Assembly: GCF_000202635.1 (NCBI RefSeq) | Contig: NC_015125.1 | Span: forward strand, 1,488,001-1,552,000 | DNA from: Microbacterium testaceum StLB037 | GTDB taxonomy: Bacteria > Actinomycetota > Actinomycetes > Actinomycetales > Microbacteriaceae | Length of the DNA: 64,000 nt | Direction of reading: 5' to 3' | In this document: positions 25,053 through 47,700 of the stretch, in pieces | How the letters are laid out: each line of letters starts with the position of its first letter | Numbering within the stretch: position 1 is the first letter of the stretch | The notes under the pieces: generated by a model | Told to the model about the DNA's origin: nothing | The model's input: the letters and a program-made list of their open reading frames with translations, nothing else | The model's database searches: none | Made by a program: the position numbers and the translations under genes

Positions 25053-25976
25053 TCACGCCAGCACTCGGGCCGGGACCGTCGAGGCCGCAGCCCACGCCAA
25101 CGGCTCCGGCACGCCCGCGGCGATCGCCGTCGCGACGGCCCGGTCCATCGTGAGCGTCGAGCCGGCGAGGGTGTCGGTCCCCACCAGCACGGGTCGCGCA
25201 TCGCGCACCTCGACGTCCAGCCCGCCCAGCCGGTAGACACCGTCCCCGAGCCCCGTCGCCGACATCGCGTCCGTGACGAGCGCGACGCGGTGCGGAGCCG
25301 CGTCGAAGAGCGTCCGCATCACCACCGGGTGCACGTGGACGCCGTCGGCGATGACCTCGAGGACGACATGGTCGCGCGCGAGCGCGGCACCCACGGGCCC
25401 GGGTGCGCGGTGCCCGAGTCCCGGCATGGCGTTGAACGCGTGCGTGAGGAGGCTCGCTCCGCGGTCGAACGCGGCGGCGGCGGTGTCGTAGTCGGCCTCC
25501 GTGTGGCCCACCGCGACGGCGACCCCCGCCGCGACGAACCGATCGATCGCCTCCGTCGCGCCGGGGAGCTCAGGAGCGATCGTCACCGCGCGCACGATCC
25601 CGTTCCCCGCCTCGATCAGACGCTCGGCAGCCTCCGCCGACGGCACGGTCAAGGCCTCGGGGTCGTGCGCGCCGCGACGGCCGTGAGCGAGGAACGGTCC
25701 CTCGAGATGCACGCCCGCGACTCCGGGCACCCGAGGGAGCACCCCCGCCAACTCGCCCAGTCGGCGCGCCATGCGGTCGACGGGGGCGCTGACGAGGCTC
25801 AGGAGAAGGGTCTCCGTGCCGTGCGCGCGGTGGTGCTCGACGGCGGCACGCACGCCGTCGATGTCCGCGTCGTCGAAGCCGTGTCCGAGCGCTCCGTGGC
25901 AGTGGAGGTCGACGAACGCGGGCGCGGCAGGCGGTCCGGAGAGGGTGCTGACGGGCGGGTGGTTGCGCGAGGGCAT
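25053..25976 (-). CDS. nagA: N-acetylglucosamine-6-phosphate deacetylase, short form
   Basis: A 307-residue NagA, removing acetate from GlcNAc-6-P. Metal and substrate motifs are visible: FVDLHCHGALGHGFDD, VHLEGPFLAHGRRGAHDPEA, VAVGHTEADYDTAAAAFDRG, LTHAFNAMPGLGHRAPGPVG and LVTDAMSATGLGDGVYRLGG, the last with the catalytic Asp. Most NagA are about 380 residues with an N-terminal beta-sandwich strand set before DxHxHG. Here only some 35 residues precede it. A -10 box (TACGGT, 25984-25989) lies 7 nt from ATG 25976, supporting a genuinely short protein. Divergent from the ROK regulator. Confidence 0.9.
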   Translation of the reverse strand: MPSRNHPPVSTLSGPPAAPAFVDLHCHGALGHGFDDADIDGVRAAVEHHRAHGTETLLLSLVSAPVDRMARRLGELAGVLPRVPGVAGVHLEGPFLAHGRRGAHDPEALTVPSAEAAERLIEAGNGIVRAVTIAPELPGATEAIDRFVAAGVAVAVGHTEADYDTAAAAFDRGASLLTHAFNAMPGLGHRAPGPVGAALARDHVVLEVIADGVHVHPVVMRTLFDAAPHRVALVTDAMSATGLGDGVYRLGGLDVEVRDARPVLVGTDTLAGSTLTMDRAVATAIAAGVPEPLAWAAASTVPARVLA

Positions 25977-25983
25977 GGCGCCC

Positions 25984-25989
25984 ACCGTA
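25984..25989 (-). promoter_or_regulatory. -10 box, leaderless type (nagA)
   Basis: TACGGT on the minus strand with 7 nt to ATG 25976. This placement argues against a longer NagA reading frame upstream. Confidence 0.5.
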
Positions 25990-26097
25990 GTGCAGAGATC
26001 TGATCTATCGACCGTTCGCAACCGCGACGGCGGCTCCGCCCGCCGCGGCGAGACGTGCAATGATCTCGTCACCGCGTCCCCCATCGAAAGCAGCGGA

Positions 26098-27270
26098 ATG
26101 AGCGCGCCCTACCCCCACCTCACGTCGACGGGCGGCGTCTTCTCGCTCATCCGCGACGGCCTCGCGCGATCGCGTTCAGACCTCTCCCGCCTGACCGGCC
26201 TCGCCCCCTCCACGATCACGCTGCGCGTCGACGAGCTTCTCGGCCTGGGCGTCGTCGAGGAGGCCGGAGAAACGGCATCCCGAGGTGGCCGTCGTCCGCG
26301 CAAACTCGCCCTCGCCCGCGACGGGCGGGTCATCGCCGGAATCGACCTCGGCGCCGCGCACGCGACGATCATCCTCGAGGATCTCCGGGGTGGGCGGGTG
26401 GCCCGTCATCGGATGAGTCTCGACATCGCCCGAGCTCCCGAAGTGGTGCTGCGCGGCATCCATCGAGAAGTGCTCGCCCTGGTGGAGGCCGCCGCGGAGC
26501 CGGTCACTCTCGCGGGCATCGGCCTCGCCGTCCCCGGGCCGGTGGGCGTCCCGGACGGGCGGATCATCTCGCCTTCGCGCATGCCGGGGTGGAACGGCAT
26601 CGACGCCTCCGCGATCCTCGGCGGCATCGCGGGCGTTCCGGTGCGCTGCGAGAACGACGCCAATGCGATGGCCCTGGGAGAGCACATCGCCGACGGGCGC
26701 CGCTCGGCGAACATGCTCGTCGTCAAAGCCGGATCGAGCATCGGCGTCGGCATCATCGTCGACGGCACCCTCTACCGCGGGGCCACCGGAGTGGCCGGCG
26801 ACATCACCCACATCGCGGTCGCCGGGTCGACCGTGGCCTGCGTGTGCGGGCGGGTCGGGTGCCTGGATGCCATCGCCGGCGGCCGCGCGATCGGCGAGGC
26901 GATGACAGCGGGCGGAATCCGCGTGGACGACGTGGCGCAGCTGGCCGACCTGGCCCGGGACGGCCATCCGCTCGCGACGCGCCTGCTGCGCGAAGCCGGG
27001 CTGCGCACGGGCAGCGTGTTGGCGACCGTCGTCGGGTTCTTCAATCCCGAACGTCTCGTCCTCGGCGGGATCATCGCCACGACAGACGCATTCGTCGCGG
27101 GGGTGCGCTCGAGCATCTACGACCTGTGCCTGCCGCTCTCGACCTCGTCGCTCGACGTCGCGGCCTCGGTCGAGGGCTGGGACATCGGGGCCCGAGGGGC
27201 GGCTCTCCTCGTGCGCGACGAGCTGTTGTCCGCGGCATCCATCGATGCGCTGACGCGCGCACGGTCGTGA
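26098..27270 (+). CDS. ROK family transcriptional regulator (NagC-like)
   Basis: A 390-residue ROK protein with an N-terminal winged helix (VFSLIRDGLARSRSDLSRL, TGLAPSTITLRVDELLGLGV) and a sugar-binding ROK fold. The phosphate-loop position reads AGIDLGAAHATIILE instead of DxGGT, so kinase activity is unlikely. The zinc-like motif CVCGRVGCLDAIAG and GLAVPGPVGVPDG are conserved. It probably represses the adjacent nagA and importer genes and is released by an amino sugar or its phosphate. It is divergent from nagA with 121 bp between starts, and 180 bp upstream of the binding-protein gene, where two operator-like palindromes occur. Confidence 0.88.
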   Translation: MSAPYPHLTSTGGVFSLIRDGLARSRSDLSRLTGLAPSTITLRVDELLGLGVVEEAGETASRGGRRPRKLALARDGRVIAGIDLGAAHATIILEDLRGGRVARHRMSLDIARAPEVVLRGIHREVLALVEAAAEPVTLAGIGLAVPGPVGVPDGRIISPSRMPGWNGIDASAILGGIAGVPVRCENDANAMALGEHIADGRRSANMLVVKAGSSIGVGIIVDGTLYRGATGVAGDITHIAVAGSTVACVCGRVGCLDAIAGGRAIGEAMTAGGIRVDDVAQLADLARDGHPLATRLLREAGLRTGSVLATVVGFFNPERLVLGGIIATTDAFVAGVRSSIYDLCLPLSTSSLDVAASVEGWDIGARGAALLVRDELLSAASIDALTRARS

Positions 27271-27449: not shown

Positions 27450-28709
27450 ATGCACAAGAAACGGATCGCCTTCGCGGGCCTCGTCGCCGTCACGGCGATG
27501 GGCTTCACCGCCTGCGCCTCCGGAGGCAGCGCAGCCGACGGCGGCAAGACGACCATCGTCTGGAACATGTGGGCCGGTGACACCGCGTCCGAGCAGAAGC
27601 TCAAGGACCAGATGGCCGTCGCCCAGAAGCTCGTCGGCGACGACATCACCATCGAGCTCCAGACCGCGCCGTGGGCCGACTACTTCACGAAGCTCAACAC
27701 GAACATGGCGTCGGGCAAGGTCGCCTGCGTCACCGGCATGAACGGCCAGCGCCTCGCCGGCTACACCGAGGTGTTCGACGAGCTCACCGACGACGACCTG
27801 TCCACGATGGGGATCTCGCGCGACGCCTACAACCCGGGTGCGCTGAGCGTCATGGAGAACGGCGGCAAGCTGTACGGCCTCCCCTACGACACCGCTGCGA
27901 TGCTCCTCTTCTACAACGCCGACCTCTTCGCCAAGGCCGGCGCCCCGCTGCCGACCAACGACTGGACGATCGACGACTTCGAGAAGGCCGCGAGCGAGAT
28001 CACCGCCAAGGCCGGCGCGAAGGGCTTCGCCGTCTCGGTCGACGAGTTCCAGTGGCTCTCGCTGCCGATGGCCGAGACGGGCCTGCAGCCGGTCGACGAC
28101 TCGGGCAAGCTCGACCTGACCAACCCGAGCTTCGTCGAGGCGGCCACCCGCTACGGCGACCTCGTCACCAAGCTCGGCGTCTCGGACGCCGTCCCCTCCG
28201 CCTCCGACTCGGCGTGGACCACCACCCAGTTCGAGAACGGCAAGGCCGCGATGATCATCGAGGGGACGTGGATGGCATCCACTCTCACCGCACCCGACCT
28301 CGGCTTCTCGGCGGGCGCGGTGCGCATCCCGCGCGGTTCCGACGGCGCGTACGGCGTCGCGCTCGGCTCGGGGTACGGCATCGCCGCGAACTGCGAGAAC
28401 AAGGAAGCCGCCCTCAAGGTGCTCGGTGCCCTCTCGAGCCCCGACGTGCAGTCCGTGATCGCTCAGCAGGGCGGCTACCCCGCGCAGCTCGCCAGCCAGC
28501 CGGAGTTCTTCACCGCGCTCCCGGATGCCACGCGCGACAACCTCACCCAGGCCTTCACCGCCGCATTCGAGGGTGCGGTGTCGCAGCGCGTGACCGATCA
28601 GTGGACGCAGGTCGCGACCGCGATGCCGAACGAGCTCGTCAGCGTCTACACGGGCCAGGCGACCATGTCGTCGGTGCTCGACGGTCTCGAACAGCGTTTC
28701 GGTAAGTAA
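27450..28709 (+). CDS. sugar ABC transporter substrate-binding lipoprotein
   Basis: A 419-residue family 1 extracellular solute-binding protein. The signal peptide ends in a lipobox (GFTACAS, Cys 22). Mature landmarks are TIVWNMWAGDTASEQKL, a typical oligosaccharide binder start, and SVMENGGKLYGLPYDTAAML, FENGKAAMIIEGTWMAS and GVALGSGYGIA. It carries saccharide to the two downstream permeases. With a cytoplasmic fucosidase and GlcNAc catabolic genes in the same operon, a fucosylated GlcNAc oligosaccharide is the most economical ligand; this is inference. A strong hairpin follows its stop codon. No ATPase gene is in the cluster, so a shared MsiK-type ATPase is probably used. Confidence 0.9.
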   Translation: MHKKRIAFAGLVAVTAMGFTACASGGSAADGGKTTIVWNMWAGDTASEQKLKDQMAVAQKLVGDDITIELQTAPWADYFTKLNTNMASGKVACVTGMNGQRLAGYTEVFDELTDDDLSTMGISRDAYNPGALSVMENGGKLYGLPYDTAAMLLFYNADLFAKAGAPLPTNDWTIDDFEKAASEITAKAGAKGFAVSVDEFQWLSLPMAETGLQPVDDSGKLDLTNPSFVEAATRYGDLVTKLGVSDAVPSASDSAWTTTQFENGKAAMIIEGTWMASTLTAPDLGFSAGAVRIPRGSDGAYGVALGSGYGIAANCENKEAALKVLGALSSPDVQSVIAQQGGYPAQLASQPEFFTALPDATRDNLTQAFTAAFEGAVSQRVTDQWTQVATAMPNELVSVYTGQATMSSVLDGLEQRFGK

Positions 28710-28772: not shown

Positions 28773-30050
28773 ATGAACGCGAGCCGCACCGACTGGTTCG
28801 TCCACGACCGCTTCGGGATGTTCGTCCACTTCGGGCTCTACAGCGTCGCCGCCCGGCACGAGTGGGTCCAGAACTACGAGCGCATCGAAGCCGCCGACTA
28901 CGCGCGGTACGCCCGTTTCTTCGACCCCGACCTCTTCGACGCACGCGCCCTCGCGCGTCAGGCCCGTGAGGCCGGCGCCCGCTACGTCGTGCTCACCGCC
29001 AAGCACCACGAGGGCTTCTGCCTGTGGAACACGGCGACGACCCCGTTCAACGCCGTCGAAGCCTGCGGCCGCGACCTCGTGCGCGAGTACGTCGACGCCC
29101 TGCGCGCCGAGGGACTGCGCGTCGGCCTCTACTTCTCGCTGCTCGACTGGTCGCACCCGCACTACACGATCGACCGGCACCACCCCCAGCGCGGTGCCGC
29201 CGACGTCGCCGAGCGCAACGCCGCGCGCGACATGGCCGTGTACCGGGAGTACCTGCATGCCCAGGTGCGTGAGCTGCTGACCGGATACGGCCCTCTCGAC
29301 TACCTCTTCTTCGACTTCACCGAACCCGCGGAGGAGGACGGCCTCCCCGGCAAGTCCCCCGAGGACTGGGATGCCGAGACCCTCCTGGCGATGTGCCGGG
29401 AGCTGCAGCCCGACATGATCGTGAACGATCGCCTCGGCATCCCCGCCGATCTCGTCACCCCCGAGCAGTACCAGCCCGTGCGCCCCTTCGAGCGCGACGG
29501 CGTCCCCCTGGTGTGGGAGGCGTGCCAGACGATCAACGGCAGCTGGGGCTACCACCGTGACAACCACGACAGCAAGAGCGCGGCCCTGCTGGTGCGGATG
29601 CTCGCCCGCTCGGTGGCCCTGGGCGGAAACCTTCTCCTGAACGTCGGCCCGACCGGACGCGGCGAGATCGCCCCGCGCGACGCCGTACTGCTGTCCGAGG
29701 TCGGCGACTGGATGACCCGGCACGCGGATGCCATCCGCGGCGCCGCCGCGTCGAGCTTCACGGCCCCGTCGGGAGTGGTCTACACCCAGCGCGGCGACCG
29801 CCTCTACGCGCACCTGTTCGACTGGCCCTTCGGCCTACTCCACCTCCCCGACCTCGCCGACCGCGTCGCCTTCGCGCGCTTCCTCGACGACGGCTCCGAG
29901 GTGCTGCTCGAAGAGATCCCCGCAGGCCAAGAGGCGTTCAACCTCCAGCCCGCGGCCCCCGAGCCGGGGACCCTGACGCTCAAGCTCCCCGTCCAGCCTC
30001 CGTCGGTCGCGCTGCCGGTGATCGAGCTGTTCCTGCGGGCCTCCTCATGA
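28773..30050 (+). CDS. alpha-L-fucosidase, GH29, cytoplasmic
   Basis: A 425-residue GH29 enzyme releasing L-fucose from the non-reducing end. Family signatures are WFVHDRFGMFVHFGLYSV (from residue 8), VVLTAKHHEGFCLWNT (about 72-87), GLYFSLLDWSHPHY and DYLFFDF with D181 as likely nucleophile; NGSWGYHRDNHDSKS and GGNLLLNVGPTGRGEI follow. No signal peptide is present, so it works on imported saccharide. It lacks additional C-terminal carbohydrate modules; length is near the minimal GH29 plus a beta domain. It lies between the binding protein and permease genes and shares a 4-nt overlap option with the latter. Confidence 0.93.
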   Translation: MNASRTDWFVHDRFGMFVHFGLYSVAARHEWVQNYERIEAADYARYARFFDPDLFDARALARQAREAGARYVVLTAKHHEGFCLWNTATTPFNAVEACGRDLVREYVDALRAEGLRVGLYFSLLDWSHPHYTIDRHHPQRGAADVAERNAARDMAVYREYLHAQVRELLTGYGPLDYLFFDFTEPAEEDGLPGKSPEDWDAETLLAMCRELQPDMIVNDRLGIPADLVTPEQYQPVRPFERDGVPLVWEACQTINGSWGYHRDNHDSKSAALLVRMLARSVALGGNLLLNVGPTGRGEIAPRDAVLLSEVGDWMTRHADAIRGAAASSFTAPSGVVYTQRGDRLYAHLFDWPFGLLHLPDLADRVAFARFLDDGSEVLLEEIPAGQEAFNLQPAAPEPGTLTLKLPVQPPSVALPVIELFLRASS

Positions 30051-30064
30051 CGAAAGGTCACCGG

Positions 30065-30982
30065 ATGGTCACCGAATCCTCCATCGCCCCGCGGCGACGC
30101 AACACGATCGAGCGGAGGGAACGCCGTCAGGCACTCGGCTTCATCACCCCGGCCGTGCTCGGTCTCGCGGTCTTCACCGTGCTGCCCGTGGGACTCGCGA
30201 TCGTGATGAGCCTGTTCGACTGGCCGATCTTCGGCAAGCGGGCGTTCGTCGGTTTCGACAACTACGTGACGCTCCTCACCTCATCGCCCGACTTCTGGCC
30301 GGCGCTGCGCAACTCCGCGGTGTTCACGCTGCTCTACGTGCCGCTGAACCTCATCGTGGCGCTGGGACTGTCGCTGCTGCTCGGCCCCCGCATCCGCGGT
30401 CGCGCCGTCTTCCGGGTGCTGTTCTTCATCCCCGTGGTGACGCCGATCGTGGCGAGCGCGCTCATCTGGCGTCTCGTCCTGCAGCCGGATGGTCTGCTCA
30501 ACGGCATGACCGTCTCGCTCTTCGGCTGGGAACTGCCGAACTTCCTCGTCGACCAGAACTGGGCGATGCTCGCCGTCGTCGCGATGAGCGTGTGGGCGGG
30601 CATGGGCTACAACATGCTCGTCCTCACCGCGGCCCTCGAACAGGTGCCCACCTCCGTCGTCGAGGCCGCGCAGATCGACGGGGCCCGTGGCATCCGTCTC
30701 ATCTGGCAGGTGATCATCCCGCTCATCTCGCCCGCGATCTTCTTCGCCGCGGTGATGACGATCATCTCCTCGATGCAGGTCTTCGCCCAGCCGCAGCTGC
30801 TCACCGGCGGCGGGCCCGGCACGTCCACCGTGCCGCTGGTGATGTTCATCTACAACACCGGCTTCAAGTTCCAGGACCTCGGTCTCGCCGCCGCGGGCGC
30901 GTGGATCCTGTTCGTCATCATCATCGGCATCACGGCGCTGCAGTTCCGGGCGCAGAAGAGGTGGGTGCACTATGAGCACTGA
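30065..30982 (+). CDS. sugar ABC transporter permease 1
   Basis: A permease of about 305 residues of the MalF/LacF class. Six membrane spans include ALGFITPAVLGLAVFTVLPV, VFTLLYVPLNLIVALGLSLL, VFRVLFFIPVVTPIVASALI and the C-terminal AAAGAWILFVIIIGITALQF. The EAA loop is VVEAAQIDGARGIRLIWQVI. I chose ATG 30065 because GAAAGG lies 7 nt upstream; ATG 30047, overlapping the fucosidase stop by 4 nt (ATGA), is a real alternative adding 6 residues. It pairs with the next gene to form the membrane channel. Confidence 0.9.
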   Translation: MVTESSIAPRRRNTIERRERRQALGFITPAVLGLAVFTVLPVGLAIVMSLFDWPIFGKRAFVGFDNYVTLLTSSPDFWPALRNSAVFTLLYVPLNLIVALGLSLLLGPRIRGRAVFRVLFFIPVVTPIVASALIWRLVLQPDGLLNGMTVSLFGWELPNFLVDQNWAMLAVVAMSVWAGMGYNMLVLTAALEQVPTSVVEAAQIDGARGIRLIWQVIIPLISPAIFFAAVMTIISSMQVFAQPQLLTGGGPGTSTVPLVMFIYNTGFKFQDLGLAAAGAWILFVIIIGITALQFRAQKRWVHYEH

Positions 30983-31913
30983 GACCCTGCGACAGACCCA
31001 CCGCCCGACTCCGCTGTCGCCCGCGACCGCCGTCGACGGCCCGCGCGGCGGCCGACGCGGCCGGCGGCGCGGCCAGCCGGCCTCCCGCGGCGAGCGCCTC
31101 GGGCTGATCGGCGCGTACATCGCCGTGATCGTCGCGGCGGTCATCTTCGCCGCTCCGCTGATCTACGCGTTCTTCTCGGCCCTGAAGCCGTCGAACGAGG
31201 TGCTGCTCGCGCCTCCCACGCTGATCGGCAGCGAGGTGCGCTGGCAGAACTTCCTCGAGGTGTTCAGCTTCGCCCCGTTCCCGACCTACATCGCGAACTC
31301 GTTCCTCGTCTCGATCGCCGGGGTCCTCGTCGTCCTCGTCGTCTCGTCGACGGCCGGCTACGCCTTCGGGCGTCTGCGCTGGCCCGGGCGCGACATCGTG
31401 TTCGTGCTGTTCCTGGGCACCCTGATGGTTCCGCAGGAAGTGCTGGTCATCCCGATGTTCGTCGTCATGCAGTGGTTCGGGTGGGTCGACACGTACCAGT
31501 CGCTCATCTTCCCCTGGGCCTTCACCGCCTTCGGCACCTTCCTCATGCGGCAGTTCTTCCGCGGCATCCCGTTCGAACTCGAGGAGGCCGCGCGCATGGA
31601 CGGCGCCGGTCCCGTCCGCACCTTCCTGCAGGTGATCCTCCCGCTGGCTGGCTCGGCGCTCGCGGTGCTGGCCGTGTTCACCTTCCTCAACTACTGGAAC
31701 AGCTACCTCTGGCCCCTCGTGACCGTCAACGACTACAACGCCCTCGGAACCCTGCCCATCGGTCTCGCGAGTTTCGCGACGCAGACCGGAACTCGGTGGG
31801 ACCTGCAGATGGCGGCGACGATCATCTCGATGATCCCCACCACGATCCTCGTGATCGCCCTGCAGAAGCACCTCGTCAAGGGCATCGCGACGTCGGGTCT
31901 GGGCGGGCGATGA
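30972..31913 (+). CDS. sugar ABC transporter permease 2
   Basis: A 313-residue MalG-class permease. The N-terminus has a basic Arg/Gly-rich cytoplasmic stretch (RGGRRGRRRGQ), then spans such as LIGAYIAVIVAAVIFAAPLI and VFVLFLGTLMVPQEVLVIPM. The EAA loop is ELEEAARMDGAGPVRTFLQV. It ends with LQKHLVKGIATSGLGGR, typical of the family. It overlaps permease 1 by 11 nt and the M81 gene by 4 nt, so translation is coupled along the operon. Confidence 0.92.
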   Translation: MSTETLRQTHRPTPLSPATAVDGPRGGRRGRRRGQPASRGERLGLIGAYIAVIVAAVIFAAPLIYAFFSALKPSNEVLLAPPTLIGSEVRWQNFLEVFSFAPFPTYIANSFLVSIAGVLVVLVVSSTAGYAFGRLRWPGRDIVFVLFLGTLMVPQEVLVIPMFVVMQWFGWVDTYQSLIFPWAFTAFGTFLMRQFFRGIPFELEEAARMDGAGPVRTFLQVILPLAGSALAVLAVFTFLNYWNSYLWPLVTVNDYNALGTLPIGLASFATQTGTRWDLQMAATIISMIPTTILVIALQKHLVKGIATSGLGGR

Positions 31914-33394
31914 CCGCGCGACCGCCCCGCATCGTCATCGCCGGGATGGCGATCGAGTCCAGCGCGTACGCCGCCCACCGCGCCGGTCACGACGACTTCG
32001 TGGTGCTGCGCGGGAGCGAGGTGCTCACGCGGTACCCGTTCCTCGCTCCCGGTACGCCTCTGGGCGACGCCGCCGAGTGGATCGGCGTCTTCTACGCCCG
32101 CTCCATCCCCGGCGGACAGGTGCGTCGCGAGGTCTACGACGACTTCCGCTCACGGATCGTCGACGGCCTCGCCGCGGTCGGCGACGTGGATGCCGTGTAC
32201 CTCGACGTCCACGGGGCGATGGGCGTCGAGGGCATGGACGACGCCGAGGGCGACCTCGTCGAGGCCGTCCGCACGGTCGTCGGAGCGCGGCCGTTGATCG
32301 CCGCCCCGATGGACCTGCACGGCAACGTCTCGGAACGCTTCGCCCGCGCCGTCGACCTGCCGACGTGCTTCCGCCTCGCCCCGCACGAAGACGCCGACGA
32401 CACCCGCGAGCGCGCGGCGCGGACCCTGCTCGAGTGGGTGGGCCGCGACGAGCGCCCGGCGCGCGCCTGGGTGCGAGTGCCGATCCTGCTGCCGGGGGAG
32501 AAGACGTCCACGCGCGTCGAGCCCGCGAAGAGCCTCTATGCCCGCCTCGACGAGGTGGAGCGGATGCCGGGCGTCACGGACGCGTCCATCTGGATCGGCT
32601 ACGCGTGGGCGGACGAACCCCGCTGCCATGCGACGGTGATCGTCAGCGGCGCCGACCCGGCGACCCTCACGACCGAGGCCGAGACGCTCGCCCGCGCGCT
32701 GTGGGACGCCCGCGAGGACTTCTCGTTCGTCGGGCCGCCCGGCTCGCTCGCCGAGGGGATCGCCGCGGGACTCGCGCACCGCGCCACCGGCGGGGCGCGG
32801 CCGTACCTCGTGAGCGACTCCGGCGACAATCCGGGTGCCGGCGGCTCGGGCGACGTGACCTGGACGCTGCACCAGCTGCTGGCCGACGAGCGTCTCACGG
32901 GCGCCACGGATGACCTCACCGTCGCCGTCGCCTCGATCTTCGACCCGGCTGCGGTGGCCACCCTCGACGACACCGACGTGGGAGCGCCGGTGGACGTCGA
33001 GGCGGGAGCCCGCGTCGACGACCGTGTCAGCGGACCGGCCCGTATCGCCGGCGTCCTGGTCGGTCGATACGACGACCCGGTCGCCGGCCGCGTCGTCGTC
33101 ATCCGGGTCGGCGCCCTGCGGGTGATCGTGACCGAGCGCCGCAAAGCGTTCCACGCGGTCGACGACTTCCGCGCGATCGGGATCGACCCGCTCGCCACCG
33201 ACATCCTCGTGACGAAGATCGGCTACCTGGAGCCCACGCTGTACAACGTCGCCGCGGGCTGGACGCTGGCCCTCACGCCCGGCCCGGTGGACCAGGACCT
33301 CGTGCGTCTCGGGCACCACCGCATCGGGCGGCCGATGTTCCCCTTCGACGCGTTCGACACCGACCCCGACCTCACGGTGACGGTGCTGCGATGA
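31910..33394 (+). CDS. M81 family (MlrC-like) metallopeptidase-type protein
   Basis: A 494-residue protein of the M81/MlrC family, whose founding member (microcystinase C) is a zinc enzyme acting on linear microcystin and its fragments. Likely metal ligands are D99 and H101 in YLDVHGAMG and H137 in PMDLHGNVS. DSGDNPGAGGSGDVTWTLHQ marks the MlrC C-terminal half. Actinobacteria carry many M81 paralogues near sugar or amino-acid transport genes, and true substrates are mostly unknown. It sits between permease 2 and cutC with 4-nt overlaps on both sides, so it belongs to the amino-sugar operon. Hydrolysis of an amide or lactyl/peptidyl adduct on the imported sugar is only a guess. Confidence 0.85.
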   Translation: MTARPPRIVIAGMAIESSAYAAHRAGHDDFVVLRGSEVLTRYPFLAPGTPLGDAAEWIGVFYARSIPGGQVRREVYDDFRSRIVDGLAAVGDVDAVYLDVHGAMGVEGMDDAEGDLVEAVRTVVGARPLIAAPMDLHGNVSERFARAVDLPTCFRLAPHEDADDTRERAARTLLEWVGRDERPARAWVRVPILLPGEKTSTRVEPAKSLYARLDEVERMPGVTDASIWIGYAWADEPRCHATVIVSGADPATLTTEAETLARALWDAREDFSFVGPPGSLAEGIAAGLAHRATGGARPYLVSDSGDNPGAGGSGDVTWTLHQLLADERLTGATDDLTVAVASIFDPAAVATLDDTDVGAPVDVEAGARVDDRVSGPARIAGVLVGRYDDPVAGRVVVIRVGALRVIVTERRKAFHAVDDFRAIGIDPLATDILVTKIGYLEPTLYNVAAGWTLALTPGPVDQDLVRLGHHRIGRPMFPFDAFDTDPDLTVTVLR

Positions 33395-34119
33395 CGGCCC
33401 TCGAGCTGGCGGTACAGGATGCCGCGGGCATCCGCGTCGCGGCCGAACTCGGTGTCGACCGGATCGAGCTGTGCTCCGCCCTGTCTCTCGGCGGCCTGAC
33501 CCCCTCGGCGGGTCTCATCGCCGCGGCGGCGGACTCCGGCATCCCGACCCACGTGCTCGTGCGACCGCGCGCGGGGGACTTCGAGTACGACGACGCCGAG
33601 CGCGCCGTGATCGTGGACGACGTCCGCCGGGCGTGCCTGCACGGCGCGACCGGGGTGGTCGTCGGGGGGCTCCGCGACGGGCGCGTCGACGAGGCGCTGA
33701 TGTCGCGCATCGTGGCCGCGGCCGACGGCGCTCCGGTCACCTTCCACCGAGCGTTCGACAACCTGTCCGACCTCGACGCCGGCCTCGACCGCCTGACCGC
33801 GCTCGGTGTCACCCGCGTGCTCACCTCGGGCGGGGCGGCTCGCGCCGAGGAGGCGCTGCCGGTCCTCGCGCGCCTGGTGAGCCGCGCGGATCACGACATC
33901 GAGATCATGGCGGGCAGCGGCGTACGCTCCGACAACGTCGAGCGGATCGCCGCGACCGGCGTCGACGCCGTTCACGCCTCCGCCAAGCGCACCGTCACCG
34001 GCCGGCCGGGGGTCGCGCTCGGCTCGGCGGCGACCGACGGCGGTGGGTACGAGACCGTCGATGCCGACGAGGCGCGCCGCCTGCTCGGCATCCTGCGTTC
34101 GACCGAGGAGGCGAGATGA
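33391..34119 (+). CDS. cutC: CutC family protein
   Basis: A 242-residue TIM-barrel protein: LELAVQDAAGIRVAAELGVD, RIELCSALSLGGLTPSAGLI, VLVRPRAGDFEYDDAE, VTFHRAFDNLSDLDAGLDRL, VTRVLTSGGAARAEEALPVL and VDAVHASAKR. This is a full-length CutC. It was named for copper tolerance in E. coli, but that link has been questioned, and in many Gram-positive genomes the gene lies among amino-sugar genes, as here. It overlaps the M81 and ROK kinase genes by 4 nt each. An enzymatic role in sugar breakdown is inferred from context only. Confidence 0.9.
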   Translation: MTALELAVQDAAGIRVAAELGVDRIELCSALSLGGLTPSAGLIAAAADSGIPTHVLVRPRAGDFEYDDAERAVIVDDVRRACLHGATGVVVGGLRDGRVDEALMSRIVAAADGAPVTFHRAFDNLSDLDAGLDRLTALGVTRVLTSGGAARAEEALPVLARLVSRADHDIEIMAGSGVRSDNVERIAATGVDAVHASAKRTVTGRPGVALGSAATDGGGYETVDADEARRLLGILRSTEEAR

Positions 34120-35021
34120 CGCTTCTTCTGGGAGTGGACAACGGGGGCACGCGGGTCAAGCTGCTGCTCGCGCGCGAGACCGACGGACGGCTCGAGCACG
34201 TGCGCACGAGCGACGCGCCGACCCCGCGCGGACCCGCGGCGATGGACGAGCTGGCCACCCTGACGCGGGCGTTCCTCGCCGACGACCGAGCCGACGCGTT
34301 CGGTCTCACCGTCGCGGGAATCCTCGACGAGGCATCCGGCGTCGTCTCCACGAGCGCGAACATGCGCTGGCTCGAGGGGCTCGCGCCCGCTCGCGAGCTG
34401 TCGGATCGACTCGGCATCCCCGGAGAGGCCGTCCAGGACGGCGTCGCCACGGCGATCGCGGAGGCGGTTCTCGGCGCCGGACGGGGAGCCGAGGACGTGT
34501 TCGTGCTGGCCCTCGGCACCGGCATCGCCGGCGCTCACGTCGTCGACGGATCGGTGCGCAAGGGCGCCCACGGCGGCGCGGGAGAGATCGGCCACATCGC
34601 CACGGGCGGAGACGAGATGTGCACCTGCGGGCAGTCGGGATGCCTCGAGTCGGTGCTGGGCGGCACGCGCCTCGGCGCCCGCTGGGATCGCGCGCGCGGG
34701 GTCGACACGCAGTCGACCGCCCTCGACGTGGTCCTCGCCGCCGAGCGCGGGGACGGCACCGCGCGCGCGATCCTGGACGAGGCCACCACGGCTCTCGCCA
34801 ACGGGCTGCTGAGCGTGATGGCGATGATCGACCCCGGGGTGATCGTCATCGGCGGCGGGCTGTCGAACTCCCCCGCCTGGATCATCGACCCCGCGATCGA
34901 GAAGGCCCATCGCCGCGCGACCTTCCACGCGGTTCCCCCCATCATCCGCGCGCAGCTCGGGTCGTGGGCCGGGGCGTGGGGCGCCGTGCTGACGGCGGGG
35001 CACAGAATGGAGCTGGTCTGA
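34116..35021 (+). CDS. ROK family sugar kinase (probable GlcNAc/glucose kinase)
   Basis: A 301-residue ROK kinase without a DNA-binding domain. The phosphate loop is LLGVDNGGTRVKLLL (DxGGT form intact). FVLALGTGIAGAHVVDG, the GAGEIGHI segment carrying the sugar-contact Glu/His, and the zinc motif CTCGQSGCLES are all present. It would phosphorylate the hexose or GlcNAc released inside the cell, supplying NagA. Specificity for GlcNAc rather than glucose is inferred from the flanking nagB and nagA. It overlaps cutC by 4 nt and nagB by 1 nt (TGATG). Confidence 0.88.
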   Translation: MTLLLGVDNGGTRVKLLLARETDGRLEHVRTSDAPTPRGPAAMDELATLTRAFLADDRADAFGLTVAGILDEASGVVSTSANMRWLEGLAPARELSDRLGIPGEAVQDGVATAIAEAVLGAGRGAEDVFVLALGTGIAGAHVVDGSVRKGAHGGAGEIGHIATGGDEMCTCGQSGCLESVLGGTRLGARWDRARGVDTQSTALDVVLAAERGDGTARAILDEATTALANGLLSVMAMIDPGVIVIGGGLSNSPAWIIDPAIEKAHRRATFHAVPPIIRAQLGSWAGAWGAVLTAGHRMELV

Positions 35022-35806
35022 TGGCCGAAGTGGTGATCACCCGGAGCGCGGACGAGGCGTCTGCGCTGGCCGCCGACCATGTCGCGCGGGCGATCGCGGC
35101 GCAGCCGCGTCTCGTCCTGGGCGTGGCGACGGGCTCGACCCCCGAGAGGTTCTACCGGCACCTGGCCCGGCGCATCGCGGAGGACGGCCTCGACACCTCG
35201 GGGGTGAGGGCGTTCGCGCTCGACGAGTACGTGGGCCTTCCCGCCGACCACCCGGAGTCGTACGCCGCCGTCATCGAGCGGACCGTGACCACGCCGCTCG
35301 GTCTCGACCCGGCGCACGTGCACGTGCCCGACGGCCGCGCGGCCGATCCGTTCGCCGCCGCCGCCGCGTACGATCGCGCGATCGACGAAGCGGGCGGAGT
35401 CGACATCCAGATACTCGGCATCGGGCGCAACGGCCACATCGGCTTCAACGAGCCCGGGTCCTCGCTCGGTTCCCGCACGCGCGTGAAGACGCTGGCCGCC
35501 TCGACCCGCGAGGCCAACGCGCGCTTCTTCGCCGACCCTGCCGACGTCCCCGTGCACTGCATCACGCAGGGCATCGGCACCATCCGCGAGGCCCGGCACC
35601 TCCTCCTGCTGGCGTTCGGCGCCGACAAGAGCACCGCGCTGGCCGGTGCGGTGGAAGGCCCCGTCTCGGCGAGCCTGCCCGGCTCCGCGATCCAGCTGCA
35701 CGCGCACGTCACGGTGCTGGCCGACGAGGACGCCGCGCAGCAACTGACGCTGGCGGATGCCTATCGCGAGGCGTGGGCGCTCAAGCCCGCCGCGCAGGGG
35801 TTCTGA
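35021..35806 (+). CDS. nagB: glucosamine-6-phosphate deaminase NagB
   Basis: A 261-residue NagB converting GlcN-6-P to fructose-6-P and ammonia. Conserved parts are VLGVATGSTPERFYRHLARR, VRAFALDEYVGLPADHPESY (catalytic Asp in LDEY), ILGIGRNGHIGFNEPGSSLG (catalytic His and Glu), and SRTRVKTLAASTREANARFF. The Asn before GH replaces the Asp of E. coli NagB, as in other Gram-positive enzymes. Last gene of the operon, followed by a bidirectional hairpin. Together with nagA it ties the locus to glycolysis. Confidence 0.95.
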   Translation: MAEVVITRSADEASALAADHVARAIAAQPRLVLGVATGSTPERFYRHLARRIAEDGLDTSGVRAFALDEYVGLPADHPESYAAVIERTVTTPLGLDPAHVHVPDGRAADPFAAAAAYDRAIDEAGGVDIQILGIGRNGHIGFNEPGSSLGSRTRVKTLAASTREANARFFADPADVPVHCITQGIGTIREARHLLLLAFGADKSTALAGAVEGPVSASLPGSAIQLHAHVTVLADEDAAQQLTLADAYREAWALKPAAQGF

Positions 35807-35866: not shown

Positions 35867-38800
35867 TCAGATCGAGCGCCGGTGGCGCCGACGGGCGATG
35901 ACCATCGCGACGAGCCCCAGGACGAGCACGCTCACCCCGAGGCCGAGCGCCACGCGGGTCGCCCGGTCGTCCTGACCCGTCACCGCCAGGGGCGGGGTCT
36001 GCGGAGACGACACCCCGGGTACGGCCACCGTCACCTGCGCGGTGACCTCTCCGCCCGGGACCATCAGCGCGACGGTGTGCACTCCGGCTTCGGCGTATGC
36101 CGGGACCGTGAACACCCCCGAGGCCGTGCCGTCGGCTCCGACCGTGAGCGTCCCGAGACGCGCCGGCGTCGAGCGGAACTCCACCGCGAAGACCGTTCCC
36201 GGGTTCGCGCCCGTCACCGAGACCGGCAGCTGTCCGCCCGGAGCGACCTGCGCGACGCCGATGTGCACCACCTCGGATCCGGTGAGCGTCCCCGTCGGGT
36301 CGGTTCCAGGGTCCGTACCTGGATCGGTCCCGGGATCCGTCGGCTTCGCGGGCACGGCGACCTCGGCGACGTCGGACACGTTCCCGGCGACGTCCGTCAC
36401 CCGCACGCGCACCGTCGTCGCGGCATCCCCGACGGAGACGCTGCCGGTCGCGGCCGTCCACGGCCCCTCGCCCAGTCGGTACTCGACGACGGCGACTCCC
36501 GATCCTGCGTCGGAACCCGTGGGGGCCACCGTGCGCGACGGCGCGTTCCATCCGACGTCGGCGGTGGGCTTGGTGGCATCCCGTTTCACCTCCACGCCGA
36601 CAGGGTCGGAGGTGTTGCCGGCGGCATCCCTCGCACGGAAGGAGACGGCGGTGACACCGTCGGCCGCGATCTCCACGGGCGCCGTGTACCCCGCCCAGTC
36701 CCCGTCGCCGACACGCACCTCGACGACAGGGGCGTCGTCACGGTCGTCGATGGCGGATGCCGAGACGGCCACCGTGCCGGTGTACCAGCCGCTCGCGGGA
36801 ACGATCGGGTCGACCGCGGTGGTCACGACGGGCGCCTGCGTGTCGGGAACCGGGGTCTCCGGCTGCTCCCACACCTGCCATTCCTTGATGCCGACGCTGC
36901 CCTTGCCCTCGACCGTCCCGACAGGGTCGAGCTTCAGACGCAGACGCGTGGTGGAGACGGGGTCGAAGGTCACCGTGTTGTAGGTGTTCTTCGCCGTTCC
37001 GTACGCGCCGGCGTTCTTGACCGGCACCCACGCCTCGGTCGACGCGTCCCAGTACTCCGCGCTCCACGTCGCGGGGACGTCGATGCCGAGGCCCTGCGCG
37101 TCGAGGTTCGAGACGAAGTACACCCCCAGCTCGCCGATCCTCACCGGCTCGGTCCAGTCGTACTGCACCCACTGGTCGGTCACGGCGGGCCAGACACCCC
37201 ACACGTTCGCGTTGTCGTTCGGGGTGACGTCGCCCGACGACGTCGGCTGGACGTTGTCGTTCAGCCCCGTGACCTTGTTCCATCCGGCGGTTCCGGATGC
37301 CGTGGGCGAGGCGAGCAGCGCGACGTTGCGCTTCTGCGAGCCGTTCGCTTTCGGGATCGTCCGCTCGACGACCGACGAGACGTTGCCCGCCGCATCGGTC
37401 GAGCGCACCTGGACCCTCGTCTCGTCGAGGCCGATGAGGACCGAGCCCGTCAGCGCCTTCCAGTCGCCGGAGTCGCCCAGGCGGTACTCGATCGACGCGA
37501 CGCCCGATCCGGCATCCGTCGCCGACGCCTTGACCGTGCGGGCGACCGCGTCGGTCACGACCTCGACGGCCGGGGCCGTGGTGTCGATACGCACGGTCTG
37601 CTCGGCCACCGGCGAGGTGTTGCCCGCCGCGTCCGTGGCCCGAGCCTGCACGACGTGCGCTCCGTCGCCGGTCACCGAGACGGTACCCGTGTAGGCGGCC
37701 CAGGCGCCGGCATCCAGGCGAACCTCGATGCGCGGAGAGGCGTCCTGATCGTCGCGGGCCGTCACGTCGACGGCGACCGCCTGCGTGTACCAGCCCGAGC
37801 CGGGGGCCGCGGGCGACACCTGGAAGGCGACCGTGGGCGCCTTCGTGTCGTCCCCGCCGCCGCCCACCGTCACCACGGCCGACGCGGCCTTGGTTCCGGG
37901 CAGATCGCTCTGCACGGTCCCGGCGACCGTGAACTGCCCGGGAGCCGCGTACGACGAGGCGTCGACCGCGTCCCACGTGACCGGCAGGTCCTCCCGCGAG
38001 CCGTCGTTGAACAGCACGCCCACGGTCTTGGGCAGCGCCGGCGCGACACCCGGCCGGGTGCGGCTGGTCACGGCATCCACCTGGTTGATCTGACCGGGGG
38101 CGGTCGCCCGCACCCACACCGTCGCCTTCGCCGACACGGGGGAACCGGGCACGATGCCCGACACCGGGAAGCTGCCCTCACCGGCGACCTGGGCGTCGGT
38201 GACCTCGGCCCATGTCACGGGAAGGTCGGCGTGACTGCCGTCCGAGTAGGTGGCATCCACCGTCGCCGGCAGCTCCGGCTTCGTGCCCACCCCGGTGCGG
38301 ACATCGATCGGCTCGATCGCGGTCGGGGCGTCGGCGAACACCTTGAGCTCGCTCACGGCGACCGCGGCGTACGGGCCCGTGCCGGCCGCCTCGAGCACGA
38401 CGCGCAGGCGGGTCGTGGTGACGGCGTCGAAGGTCACGGCGTTCGCGGCGTCGCGCTGCACGGTGTACTCGGACGGGTTCGACACGTCGGCCCAGTCCGA
38501 ACCGGTCCAGTACTGCGCCTTCCAGCCCTTCGGGACGTTGACGCCGTTCGGAGAGGACGGGTCGGTCTGATCGCTCCAGAACGCGATCTCCGCCCCGGCG
38601 ACGCGCTGCGGCGTCTTCCACTCGTACTGCAACCACCGGGTGGCGGGGTGGTTGCCCGACCAGGTGCCCCAGATGTCGCTCTGGCTACCACCCGTGAACA
38701 GCACCTTCCCGTCGTTGACGGCGTTCACGTTGTTCCAGCCCGCGGTGTACTCCGCGGTGGGCGTCGCCTCGGGAGCGACGTTCGTGCCGGCCGTGACCGG

Positions 38801-41800
38801 CTCCCCCTGCACCGTCACGTCGGTCTGCGACGTCTTCTCGCCGTCATCCGCCGTCAGGCGCAGAACGTACTCGCCCTTGTCCGAGAAGCGCGCGGTCGTC
38901 GACGCCGCGGCGGCGTCGTCGAACAGCACCGTCGCCCCCTCCGGCGCGCTCACGACGCTCCAGCGCGACGACACCTCGCCGGAGGGCAGCCCGTCGTCCT
39001 TCACGGTGCCGACCAGCGCGGCCGCACCCCCCACGGAGGCCTGGCGATCCTGCCATGCGGTCACGAGCGGAGCCTGATTCGTGGATGCCGGAGCGGCGAC
39101 GCCCGTGTGGAACACCTGCAGCTCCTTGACCCCGGTCCGCGCGCCCGACGCATGCGTCGCGGTGAGGCGCACGGCGTCGCCCGTGACCTCCGGGAACTGC
39201 ACGAGGTTGTAGTTCGCCCGCGGGTACGCGGGGGTGCGAGCCTGCGACGGGATAGTGGACCACTGCCCGTTCCGACGGACCTCGAGGGTGTAGACCGCGG
39301 GCTCGGCGTAGCCGGGAGCGGTGGCCGACGAGGAGCTGGCGTAGAAGTAGGTGCGGATGTCGTCGAAGGTCTTCTCCCCGCCGAGCTCGACGGTGAGGGA
39401 GTCCTTCGCGTTCGGCGACCCCGCGGTTCCCCAGAACGGCTCGTTGACGGTCGTGCCGTCGACGGCGCCCGTCGGTTCGCGGCCGGGCGCCGAGAAGGTC
39501 GCGGTGGCCGATGCGGCGAGGTTCGCGCTGCCCGTGCTCGCGCTGCGCACGTCGGCACCCGCCTTGGCGAACAGGTCGACGACGCGGGCGTCGTCCGAGA
39601 AACGCACGTCCTGCGGCGCCTGGACGGAGGATGCCGTGGCGGTCGTCACCTTCGCGTCGCCCGTGACGACCTGGACCGTACCCGTCGCCGGGTCGTAGAC
39701 GACGTGCGAGAGCTTGTCGACCGTGAAGGCCAGCTTGCCGTCGAGGAACACGGAGTAGCCCTCGGGGACGTCGTCGCCGTAGTACCGCGTACCGCCGGGC
39801 GCGTCCCACGTGACCGTGAGATCGCGATCGCGGTAACGGATGTTGTTCGCGGTGAAGTGGTCCCAGCCGATGTCGATCGGGTCGAGCTCGATCTTGGCGT
39901 CGTCGCGGGTGCGCACGCCCATGGCATCCTCGATCATCGTGAAGTTCGTCGCACCGAGGATCGTGTGGTGGATCCATGAGCGGTAGTCGATCTTCTGCGG
40001 GTCCGCCGAGCCGTTCGCCCAGAACTCGTTCTGGTCGGGCAGGCGGTTGTCACCGCCGTTCTGGTAATGCGCCCAGGCGTTCCAGTAGAGGAGCTTCTTG
40101 TAGGACTCCGCCGTGATCGCGTCCGTCGGGTAGTCGCGCAGGACCTTCGACATCATCCGGAACATCACGGTGGAGTTGATGACCGAGAAATTGTTGCTGC
40201 CCTGCCCGCCGGTGGCGTTGTAGGCCGCCTGATCGGCCTGGTTCGCGGTGTAGAAGGGGAAGATCGGGTACTGCTTGTCGTCGGCGAAGAGGCGGAGCGC
40301 CTGGACGTAGTCGTCGTTGTAGTCGGCGTCGCCCGGCTTCGGTACGAGACCGACGGTGAACGGGTAGTAGTTGTTGATCTCCTTCCACGGCACGTGCTCA
40401 CCGTCACTGGCCATCGCGTGCTCGAGGAGCTTGGTGTCGGGGTTCCAGAGCACCTTCATGACCTGCGTCTTGATGTTCTGCGCGAATGCCTCCATCTCGT
40501 CGGCCTTCGCGGTGTCGCCGGCCGTGCGGTACGCCTGGGCGGACGCGAGGGCGTTGGAGTAGAGGTACGCGTTCTCGGCGCGGTCCTGGTAGCCGGGCTT
40601 CCAGTGGAACGACACGGCATCCGCGTCGTTCCCGGTCATCGCGCCCCAGTTGTATTCGATGAGGCCGTTCTTGTTGAAGTCGTACGCGTTGACGAGCCCC
40701 TTCACGTCGTCCTCCGCGTACGTCGCGAGGTTCTTCGCGATCGCCGTCGGACCGCCGTGCAGCTCGTACGAGCGCCACGCGGCCTCGGAGATGTACTGCG
40801 TGTAGCTGTTCGACCAGTTGGCGGGGTCGCCCGGGTTGTCGACGAACTTGTCGCTCTTGCTCGTCTCGCCGGTGGAGACCCAGGGGCCGTACGAGTAGAT
40901 CGGATCGCGGAAGTACTTCAGGTCGTCGATGAACATGCCCGTGGTGAGCACGATCGAGTTGTTGTACCCGAGAGCGCCCTCCACGGCGACGGGGAACTGA
41001 TACGTGTTGCCGGGCATGTCGGCGTCGAGGAAGTTGTAGCGCATCAGCCACCAGCGGTAGAAGAGCGTCGTGTCGATGTTGTCCTCGGGGGTGTCGAGGT
41101 ACGGGACGTTCTCGGCCCACCACCGGTTGTAGGCGGTGACGTGCGCGGTGTACGCCTCGCCGGCCGACTGCGCGCGCGTGGCGTCGTACTCCGTGCGCGA
41201 GGCCTCGATCTCATCGGTGACGAGGCCGAGCTGCAGCTTCGCGGTGGCCGAGCCGTCCGCCGGTACCGAGAGCGTCCGCGTCAGAGTCTCGCCGGCGGGC
41301 ACGAAGCCGTCACCCGAGAAGCGGGGCGAGATCCTCGTGAGGTCGTTGAGCGCCTCGACATGGCCGACGAGCTCGTCGCCGTCGACGGTCGCGGCATAGG
41401 GGGAGGATGCCACGAGCTCGACGTCGACCGCGTCGCCCGTCGCGTGCACCTCGAGGTTCGTCACCAGGACGTTCGCGTCGGTGATGAACTTCGTCTGCAC
41501 GACCTCGAGGCCGCCGCCTCGGTGGACGCTCCGCCAGTAGCTGGGCGTCTGCTTGCGCTGCGCGACGTCTTCGGTGAGAGCGACCTCCGCACCGCCGACG
41601 CGGGCGGTGATCGTGTACCCGGAGCGGCCGTCGATCGCCTCCCAGTACGCGAGCTGCCCGCCGAAACCGAGAGCGGACGGGTCGTGCTCCTTCATGAAGG
41701 CCGCACGACCGCGCGTGAACAGCCACTGGTTGTTGTCGCCGAAGCTGCCCGCGTCGCCGGTGCGCGCGAGCATCTCGTCCATCCAGAAGTCCTTCGCGGG

Positions 41801-42043
41801 GCTCGTGCCCGCGCCGGCCGCCACATCGGCGTCGAAGATCCTCCGCAGTTCGTTTCCCGGGGTGTACGTGACGCCGGTGTCGGGGACGGGGTTCGGGCTC
41901 CCCGAGAAGGTCGGGTACCCGATGTCGGTGTTGGCGGCGTGCGCCGGCGCGGCCACGAAGGCCGTCGCCAGCAGCGTCGCGATCGCCGTCGCGGCGATCA
42001 CGGAGCGCCCGACGCGATGGGGGATCGTCGGTGTGCAGTCCAC
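35867..42043 (-). CDS. wall-anchored multidomain glycoside hydrolase, GH121-like (beta-L-arabinobiosidase)
   Basis: 2058 residues. Signal peptide to about 36 (APAHA). Residues about 37-835 form a beta-sandwich plus (alpha/alpha)-barrel glycosidase region (NTDIGYPTFSGSPNPVPDTG, YNNSIVLTTGMFIDDLKYFR, WIHHTILGATNFTMIEDAMG) whose size and neighbours match HypBA2 (GH121). Then come three discoidin-like modules (about 836-980, 1086-1237, 1571-1724), a PKD-like module, two Big_4 Ig modules (DGSHADLPVTW, DGSREDLPVTW) and paired Ig repeats with ATDAAGNTS motifs. A TDPG-repeat linker follows, then LAVTG, a membrane helix and RRRHRR: a sortase signal. GTG 42043 has GAGAGG upstream. It should release arabinobiose from plant Hyp-rich glycoproteins outside the cell. 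The GH121 assignment comes from recall and context. Confidence 0.75.
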   Translation of the reverse strand: MDCTPTIPHRVGRSVIAATAIATLLATAFVAAPAHAANTDIGYPTFSGSPNPVPDTGVTYTPGNELRRIFDADVAAGAGTSPAKDFWMDEMLARTGDAGSFGDNNQWLFTRGRAAFMKEHDPSALGFGGQLAYWEAIDGRSGYTITARVGGAEVALTEDVAQRKQTPSYWRSVHRGGGLEVVQTKFITDANVLVTNLEVHATGDAVDVELVASSPYAATVDGDELVGHVEALNDLTRISPRFSGDGFVPAGETLTRTLSVPADGSATAKLQLGLVTDEIEASRTEYDATRAQSAGEAYTAHVTAYNRWWAENVPYLDTPEDNIDTTLFYRWWLMRYNFLDADMPGNTYQFPVAVEGALGYNNSIVLTTGMFIDDLKYFRDPIYSYGPWVSTGETSKSDKFVDNPGDPANWSNSYTQYISEAAWRSYELHGGPTAIAKNLATYAEDDVKGLVNAYDFNKNGLIEYNWGAMTGNDADAVSFHWKPGYQDRAENAYLYSNALASAQAYRTAGDTAKADEMEAFAQNIKTQVMKVLWNPDTKLLEHAMASDGEHVPWKEINNYYPFTVGLVPKPGDADYNDDYVQALRLFADDKQYPIFPFYTANQADQAAYNATGGQGSNNFSVINSTVMFRMMSKVLRDYPTDAITAESYKKLLYWNAWAHYQNGGDNRLPDQNEFWANGSADPQKIDYRSWIHHTILGATNFTMIEDAMGVRTRDDAKIELDPIDIGWDHFTANNIRYRDRDLTVTWDAPGGTRYYGDDVPEGYSVFLDGKLAFTVDKLSHVVYDPATGTVQVVTGDAKVTTATASSVQAPQDVRFSDDARVVDLFAKAGADVRSASTGSANLAASATATFSAPGREPTGAVDGTTVNEPFWGTAGSPNAKDSLTVELGGEKTFDDIRTYFYASSSSATAPGYAEPAVYTLEVRRNGQWSTIPSQARTPAYPRANYNLVQFPEVTGDAVRLTATHASGARTGVKELQVFHTGVAAPASTNQAPLVTAWQDRQASVGGAAALVGTVKDDGLPSGEVSSRWSVVSAPEGATVLFDDAAAASTTARFSDKGEYVLRLTADDGEKTSQTDVTVQGEPVTAGTNVAPEATPTAEYTAGWNNVNAVNDGKVLFTGGSQSDIWGTWSGNHPATRWLQYEWKTPQRVAGAEIAFWSDQTDPSSPNGVNVPKGWKAQYWTGSDWADVSNPSEYTVQRDAANAVTFDAVTTTRLRVVLEAAGTGPYAAVAVSELKVFADAPTAIEPIDVRTGVGTKPELPATVDATYSDGSHADLPVTWAEVTDAQVAGEGSFPVSGIVPGSPVSAKATVWVRATAPGQINQVDAVTSRTRPGVAPALPKTVGVLFNDGSREDLPVTWDAVDASSYAAPGQFTVAGTVQSDLPGTKAASAVVTVGGGGDDTKAPTVAFQVSPAAPGSGWYTQAVAVDVTARDDQDASPRIEVRLDAGAWAAYTGTVSVTGDGAHVVQARATDAAGNTSPVAEQTVRIDTTAPAVEVVTDAVARTVKASATDAGSGVASIEYRLGDSGDWKALTGSVLIGLDETRVQVRSTDAAGNVSSVVERTIPKANGSQKRNVALLASPTASGTAGWNKVTGLNDNVQPTSSGDVTPNDNANVWGVWPAVTDQWVQYDWTEPVRIGELGVYFVSNLDAQGLGIDVPATWSAEYWDASTEAWVPVKNAGAYGTAKNTYNTVTFDPVSTTRLRLKLDPVGTVEGKGSVGIKEWQVWEQPETPVPDTQAPVVTTAVDPIVPASGWYTGTVAVSASAIDDRDDAPVVEVRVGDGDWAGYTAPVEIAADGVTAVSFRARDAAGNTSDPVGVEVKRDATKPTADVGWNAPSRTVAPTGSDAGSGVAVVEYRLGEGPWTAATGSVSVGDAATTVRVRVTDVAGNVSDVAEVAVPAKPTDPGTDPGTDPGTDPTGTLTGSEVVHIGVAQVAPGGQLPVSVTGANPGTVFAVEFRSTPARLGTLTVGADGTASGVFTVPAYAEAGVHTVALMVPGGEVTAQVTVAVPGVSSPQTPPLAVTGQDDRATRVALGLGVSVLVLGLVAMVIARRRHRRSI

Positions 42044-43342: not shown

Positions 43343-43348
43343 GCTAGA
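43343..43348. repeat. target-site duplication, left (GCTAGA)
   Basis: GCTAGA flanks the IS at 43343-43348 and again at 44518-44523. It fits the NCTAGN target known for IS481 elements. Confidence 0.92.
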
Positions 43349-45829: not shown

Positions 45830-45835
45830 CCCCGC

Positions 45836-45866
45836 GGGGGTGCCGGGCGGCTCACCCGGCACCCCC
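45836..45866 (+). terminator. hairpin after binding-protein gene (attenuator)
   Basis: GGGGGTGCCGGG (45836-45847) and CCCGGCACCCCC (45855-45866) pair perfectly over 12 bp with a 7-nt loop, 7 nt after the stop and before the permease genes. It matches the position of the hairpin at 28717-28748 in the other importer operon. Confidence 0.75.
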
Positions 45867-45885
45867 CTCCCCGGAAGGAACACCC

Positions 45886-46791: not shown

Positions 46792-46792
46792 G

Positions 46793-47698: not shown

Positions 47699-47700
47699 CC

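Follow-up and report, generated by a model that had tools for sequence, protein, structure and literature searches.

A close known counterpart of the pathway considered here is encoded by the alf-2 cluster of L. casei, in which a GH29 fucosidase, the glycosylasparaginase AsnA2 and a ROK kinase act on fucosyl-alpha-1,6-GlcNAc-Asn (GlcNAc, N-acetylglucosamine; Asn, asparagine) (PMC6960285). The operon of interest, which contains the genes for an M81 (MlrC-like) protein and a CutC-family protein, lies in positions 1488001-1552000 of Microbacterium testaceum StLB037, the genome of which is a single contig of 3.98 Mb; this whole stretch of 64,000 nucleotides (nt) is referred to as the window. The two systems have in common a GH29 fucosidase, an importer, a ROK-family kinase, an amide-cutting enzyme and an amino-sugar end product. 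The amide-cutting enzyme is AsnA2 in alf-2, whereas in the window it would be, as we propose, M81, and uptake is by a major facilitator superfamily (MFS) permease in alf-2 and by an ATP-binding cassette (ABC) importer in the window. A fucosidase-family gene, an importer and a ROK-family kinase are thus clustered in the window as in alf-2, but the cluster has no glycosylasparaginase gene of family PF01112, and none was found in the window genome. As M81 is proposed to take the place of PF01112, the operon may work in the manner of alf-2, although we do not class it with that pathway. Neither CutC nor M81 occurs in the main text on the alf-2 cluster (PMC6960285), and none of the titles and abstract openings listed in literature searches connects either protein with GlcNAc-Asn, a passing mention elsewhere being possible.

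Both proteins belong to families named for other settings. MlrC (microcystinase C) is encoded in a toxin-degradation cluster, whereas the window M81 gene is part of an amino-sugar operon. MlrC cleaves an amide, in the form of a peptide bond, and its mutagenised catalytic residues are Glu56, His150, Asp184, His186 and His208 (PMC9506587). CutC structures (3iwp, a human chain, 1twd, 2bdq and 4r9x) represent a family labelled for copper, whereas context places the window CutC in amino-sugar breakdown; the genomic context of the family points away from copper homeostasis. Most likely, the pair serves a variant form of glyco-asparagine breakdown, in which a metal amidase replaces glycosylasparaginase and CutC is a pathway enzyme.

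The initial annotation of the window placed M81 (31910..33394, +) and cutC (33391..34119, +) inside an amino-sugar operon, joined by 4-nt overlaps, and the coordinates and overlaps are confirmed. The gene order is solute-binding lipoprotein, GH29, permease 1, permease 2, M81, CutC, ROK kinase and NagB, with a ROK regulator gene upstream and a NagA-like gene divergent from the operon. Three of the joints are ATGA overlaps: the permease 2 gene runs to 31913 and M81 begins at 31910, M81 runs to 33394 and cutC begins at 33391, and cutC runs to 34119 and the ROK kinase gene begins at 34116. The kinase gene and nagB share a single nucleotide, 35021. The 4-nt overlaps suggest translational coupling without proving it. 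In relatives with both genes, the gap between the matched stretches of M81 and CutC ranges from 0 to several kb.

The window M81 carries both domains of peptidase family M81 above their cut-offs (PF07364, 316.5 bits; PF07171, 158.5 bits). Its AlphaFold model has a mean pLDDT (predicted local distance difference test) of 88.5, and the clear structural matches are to M81 structures only; identity to MlrC (PDB 7ylq) and to 3iuu is 22 to 27 percent in structural alignments. Without gaps, H101, D135, H137 and H159 align with His150, Asp184, His186 and His208 of MlrC, the last three lying at +34, +36 and +58 from H101 with the same spacings as after His150. E16 would correspond to Glu56, an assignment made by structural offset. 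All five residues are invariant in 27 aligned sequences, the window included. Judged by the spacing to the MlrC residues, D135, H137 and H159 are the expected zinc ligands, and H101 and E16 would complete the catalytic set. Of the metal ligands first suggested, D99, H101 and H137, the two histidines are among these invariant positions, whereas D99 is variable, being Glu in P0128, His in P0181 and Gly in MlrC. The nearest named M81 locus, in Microbacterium testaceum NS283, is 91 percent identical. One other locus (L140, in genome G072) has five tandem M81 genes at 10.5-18.0 kb, 40 to 43 percent identical to the window M81; CutC was not found within the 20 kb stretch holding them. The window CutC (PF03932, 208 bits, above cut-off) has the CutC fold in an AlphaFold model of mean pLDDT 94.2, and its nearest non-CutC folds are phosphate-handling TIM barrels.

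The association of the two genes extends well beyond the window. From the search with M81 (562 encoding a relative), the 80 best-matching named loci were kept, 69 actinobacterial and 11 from Bacteroidota by title; being best matches, many from Microbacterium and some cut by contig ends, they are neither independent nor complete. Neighbours were sought with single sequences at an E-value of 1e-12, so distant copies can be missed. In 34 of the 69 actinobacterial loci, M81 has CutC within 9 kb (within 500 nt in 25), and a CutC profile search recovered the same 34, 29 of them within 1.5 kb. In an even sample of 246 genomes of the class, canonical CutC (at least 137 bits, a line drawn after the scores were seen) is present in 23 and M81 in 32; six have both, adjacent in five. 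By these counts, co-location exceeds chance. Many actinobacteria of this sample have CutC-like proteins of another, divergent group (35 to 114 bits), whose genes are adjacent to M81 in no sampled genome holding both. Among the best 120 of 7223 matches, at least two proteins (P0232 and P0239) are single-chain M81-CutC fusions with a linker, although they may reflect one event, since they resemble each other by eye. Linkage to CutC is also seen in a distant group of M81s from Alphaproteobacteria: in a quick tree of 55 M81 rows, with Shimodaira-Hasegawa-like approximate likelihood ratio support only and some long branches, the three CutC-linked alphaproteobacterial M81s stand apart in a deep clade of their own. 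Conservation of the setting is sufficient to imply a function.

Among the other neighbours of M81, a ROK kinase lies within 9 kb in 59/69 actinobacterial loci, as does a ROK regulator, whereas nagB is found in 3/69 and nagA in 2/69, so nagA and nagB belong to the setting only locally. The initial annotation held that the pair is maintained by selection beside genes of amino-sugar breakdown; this needs to be narrowed, since M81 keeps company with ROK kinases and importers and only rarely with nagA or nagB. Within the same distance, an oligopeptide-type importer is found in 29 loci and GH29 in 27, 26 of the latter also having a sugar-type importer; the oligopeptide importer and GH29 never occur together (0/69). 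The importer that accompanies the M81/ROK set, with or without CutC, is of the sugar type (with GH29) in the window, of the oligopeptide type (SBP_bac_5, oligo_HPY) elsewhere and of the amino-acid type (SBP_bac_3) at locus L137, and sugar and oligopeptide contexts are intermingled within supported clades of the M81 tree. From this range of importers, the imported compound is probably a sugar with an amino acid or short peptide attached.

The partners of CutC elsewhere narrow this further. In two actinobacteria (loci L110 and L111), where M81 was not found within the stretch, asparaginase II lies next to CutC, behind an SBP_bac_3 importer homologous to the one in L137; in L110 asparaginase II and CutC overlap by 11 nt. 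Asparaginase II is present in 174 of the 246 genomes and stands beside canonical CutC in 2 of 23 loci, in genomes with a second copy. In Hymenobacter DG25B, CutC shares 4 nt with a gene annotated as N(4)-(beta-N-acetylglucosaminyl)-L-asparaginase, and GH92 comes next. Locus L160 has the gene row MFS, MFS, ROK, PF01112, CutC, NagB, and its PF01112 protein may be exported, because a twin-arginine signal match falls just under the cut-off. The NagB there (L160:6907-8829) is fused to a PIG-L-type de-N-acetylase domain. Among 16 further stretches, GH92, GH20 or GH29 is present in L183, L185, L192 and L195, and a ROK gene in L193.

All 11 Bacteroidota genomes of the M81 loci, chosen for carrying M81, have CutC near PF01112, directly in 10 and at about 2.2 kb in one. 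An even sample of 118 Bacteroidota genomes contains CutC in 34, one copy of which is apparently broken, its match being interrupted by stops TAG and TAA (G485:C34:6846-7396). PF01112 of any type is present in 85 of the 118 and the glycosylasparaginase type, defined after the hits were seen as a match starting at model position 23 or later, in 58; the latter occurs in all 34 genomes with CutC and in 24 of the 84 without it (Fisher p 2.7e-14, uncorrected for kinship). The two genes are at most 400 nt apart in 13 of the 34 genomes, at most 3 kb in 16 and at most 12 kb in 18. PF01112 in Bacteroidota occupies the same place beside CutC as M81 does in the window, with ROK and NagB in L160, although the two belong to different Pfam families. 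At three loci (L144, L145 and L147), a PF01112 gene adjoins an oligopeptide-type ABC importer; a gene of L144 resembles that of an M55 D-aminopeptidase, and these genes perhaps serve the use of isoaspartyl peptides. Of 66 plasmid records with CutC, nine were examined: M81 lies near CutC in Peteryoungia, Loktanella, Palleronia and S. cattleyicolor and PF01112 in Hymenobacter, and nothing related was found near CutC in the Parabacteroides record.

As the neighbours of CutC elsewhere are of the glycosylasparaginase type or asparaginase II, the group removed can be narrowed to asparagine, and as other bacteria carry an annotated glycosylasparaginase beside CutC, the pair likely strips asparagine from imported glycoprotein remnants. 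The earlier suggestion of a joint, undescribed step, including removal of a peptidyl group, gains support from the recurrent linkage, the two fusions and the oligopeptide and amino-acid importers; taken as a whole, the earlier interpretation is partly supported. From these observations, we infer the substrate, the bond cut, the use of zinc, the order of steps and all of the reaction of CutC, as follows. The ABC importer would take up fucosylated GlcNAc-asparagine left from N-glycoproteins and GH29 would remove the fucose. M81 would then cut the GlcNAc-asparagine amide using zinc, and CutC would act on the 1-amino-GlcNAc so released, or on its 6-phosphate, after which the kinase, NagA and NagB could send the sugar to glycolysis. 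We give a probability of roughly 0.45 to the proposal that M81 is a zinc amidase performing the glycosylasparaginase step on (fucosyl-)GlcNAc-Asn and that CutC handles the released amino sugar. The broader claim, that CutC is a 1-amino-GlcNAc (or 6-phosphate) enzyme from bacteria to animals rather than a copper protein and that this group of M81 proteins performs the glycosylasparaginase reaction with zinc, without kinship to the classical enzyme, is unlikely.

Several observations weigh against the proposal. Thirty-five of the 69 actinobacterial M81 loci have no CutC nearby, some being ended by contig edges. Of the 18 canonical actinobacterial CutC loci without an adjacent M81, 14 have none of the amino-sugar or amidase partners queried; the other four have asparaginase II (two) or nagA/nagB (two). 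CutC and PF01112 are more than 12 kb apart or on separate contigs in 16 of the 34 Bacteroidota, and the M81 genomes there (6/118, all with CutC) also hold PF01112, so M81 is no replacement for it in this phylum. Bacteroidota M81s also look exported and stand without a sugar context: at L093, L095, L099-L101 and L105 lipoprotein- or signal-like N-termini are seen by eye, making these proteins probably exported, and no amino-sugar genes of the query set were found near them. The plasmid-borne CutC genes of Paracoccus, Sphingomonas and Kozakia are accompanied by GlcNAc genes or GH20, with no amidase in the stretch seen. In the window itself the importer is of the sugar type, the GH29 protein is not closest to AlfC (107 bits, against 356 bits for its top solved relative, 6gn6), and an asparaginase II, unlinked to the operon, is encoded at about 414 kb in the genome. 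No activity, growth or biochemical data were found for these proteins.

The CutC loci with GlcNAc genes or GH20 and no visible amidase, and the variety of importers, would also suit a pair that acts on another amide-linked amino sugar, such as a different GlcNAc conjugate, with asparagine as one case; the alternative neighbours of CutC share asparaginase-type chemistry, however, and this wider substrate is unlikely. Somewhat less likely again is that M81 is a peptidase trimming imported glycopeptides next to the glycosylated asparagine, with the unlinked asparaginase II or another enzyme cutting the GlcNAc-asparagine bond. The peptide-bond cleavage reported for MlrC, the many oligopeptide importers and the asparaginase II of the window genome would all fit such a division of labour, but asparaginase II is widespread and only rarely stands beside canonical CutC, the importer and GH29 of the window suit a small glycoside, and in Bacteroidota PF01112 itself fills the slot beside CutC. 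Oligopeptide importers and amino-sugar genes would be at home with cell-wall fragments, the cargo then being a muropeptide or N-acetylmuramic acid (MurNAc) derivative and M81 a lactyl-peptide amidase or similar, and the MurNAc-6-phosphate etherase MurQ scores above cut-off in 10 of 21 M81 genomes tested (a near full-length match in G164 falls slightly below). The window genome (G000), however, has no MurQ, its best TIGR00274 match being 35.9 bits over part of the model, which disfavours the lactyl or muropeptide chemistry that had been suggested earlier; GH29 near 27/69 M81s does not fit murein, and the partners of CutC elsewhere are asparaginase-type enzymes, GH92 and GH20, making this cargo improbable. 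That CutC serves copper handling and is in the operon by accident has the family name and annotation behind it but is very improbable in view of its linkage to M81 in Actinomycetota and Alphaproteobacteria, the two fusions and its constant company of glycosylasparaginase-type PF01112 in the Bacteroidota sample.

The lipoprotein solute-binding protein of the carbohydrate ABC importer (27450..28709, +; SBP_bac_1, 110.6 bits) has a lipobox-like N-terminus and is followed by the GH29 alpha-L-fucosidase family protein (28773..30050, +; PF01120, 272.8 bits, from residue 6), probably cytoplasmic since no signal peptide is seen by eye. Permeases 1 (30047..30982, +) and 2 (30972..31913, +) match BPD_transp_1 with 68.4 and 66.2 bits. 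Downstream of cutC are a ROK-family sugar kinase, proposed to be a GlcNAc kinase (34116..35021, +; PF00480, 152.3 bits), and NagB, glucosamine-6-phosphate deaminase (35021..35806, +), with a Glucosamine_iso domain (Pfam) and matches above cut-off to NF001684 (353.6 bits) and TIGR00502 (237 bits). Upstream are a ROK-family transcriptional regulator of the NagC/Mlc type (26095..27270, +; PF00480, 166 bits), its start picked within the open reading frame and its top NCBIfam match, TransRegNagC, under cut-off, and a NagA-like amidohydrolase of the GlcNAc-6-phosphate deacetylase family (25053..26084, -), its exact start uncertain, with 38.6 bits to Amidohydro_1 and 213 bits to TIGR00221 nagA, slightly under the cut-off of 225.65. 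Convergent with the operon is a gene for a 2058-residue protein (35867-42043, -) with an MGH1-like glycoside hydrolase, F5/8C and Ig-like domains and, by eye, an LAVTG-like C-terminal end. Beyond it lie a transposase (43344-44426, -) with integrase core and IS481 leucine-zipper domains and another ABC importer of the sugar type, accompanied by a GH127 beta-L-arabinofuranosidase family protein (44534-49653, +).

For CutC, found from bacteria to humans and labelled for copper, the proposal provides a concrete, testable metabolic assignment. If true, the glycosylasparaginase step would have in M81 another, unrelated solution, and a large protein group that bears the microcystin-degrading label would gain a suggested substrate. 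Actinobacteria would also have one more route for feeding on the remnants of N-glycoproteins.

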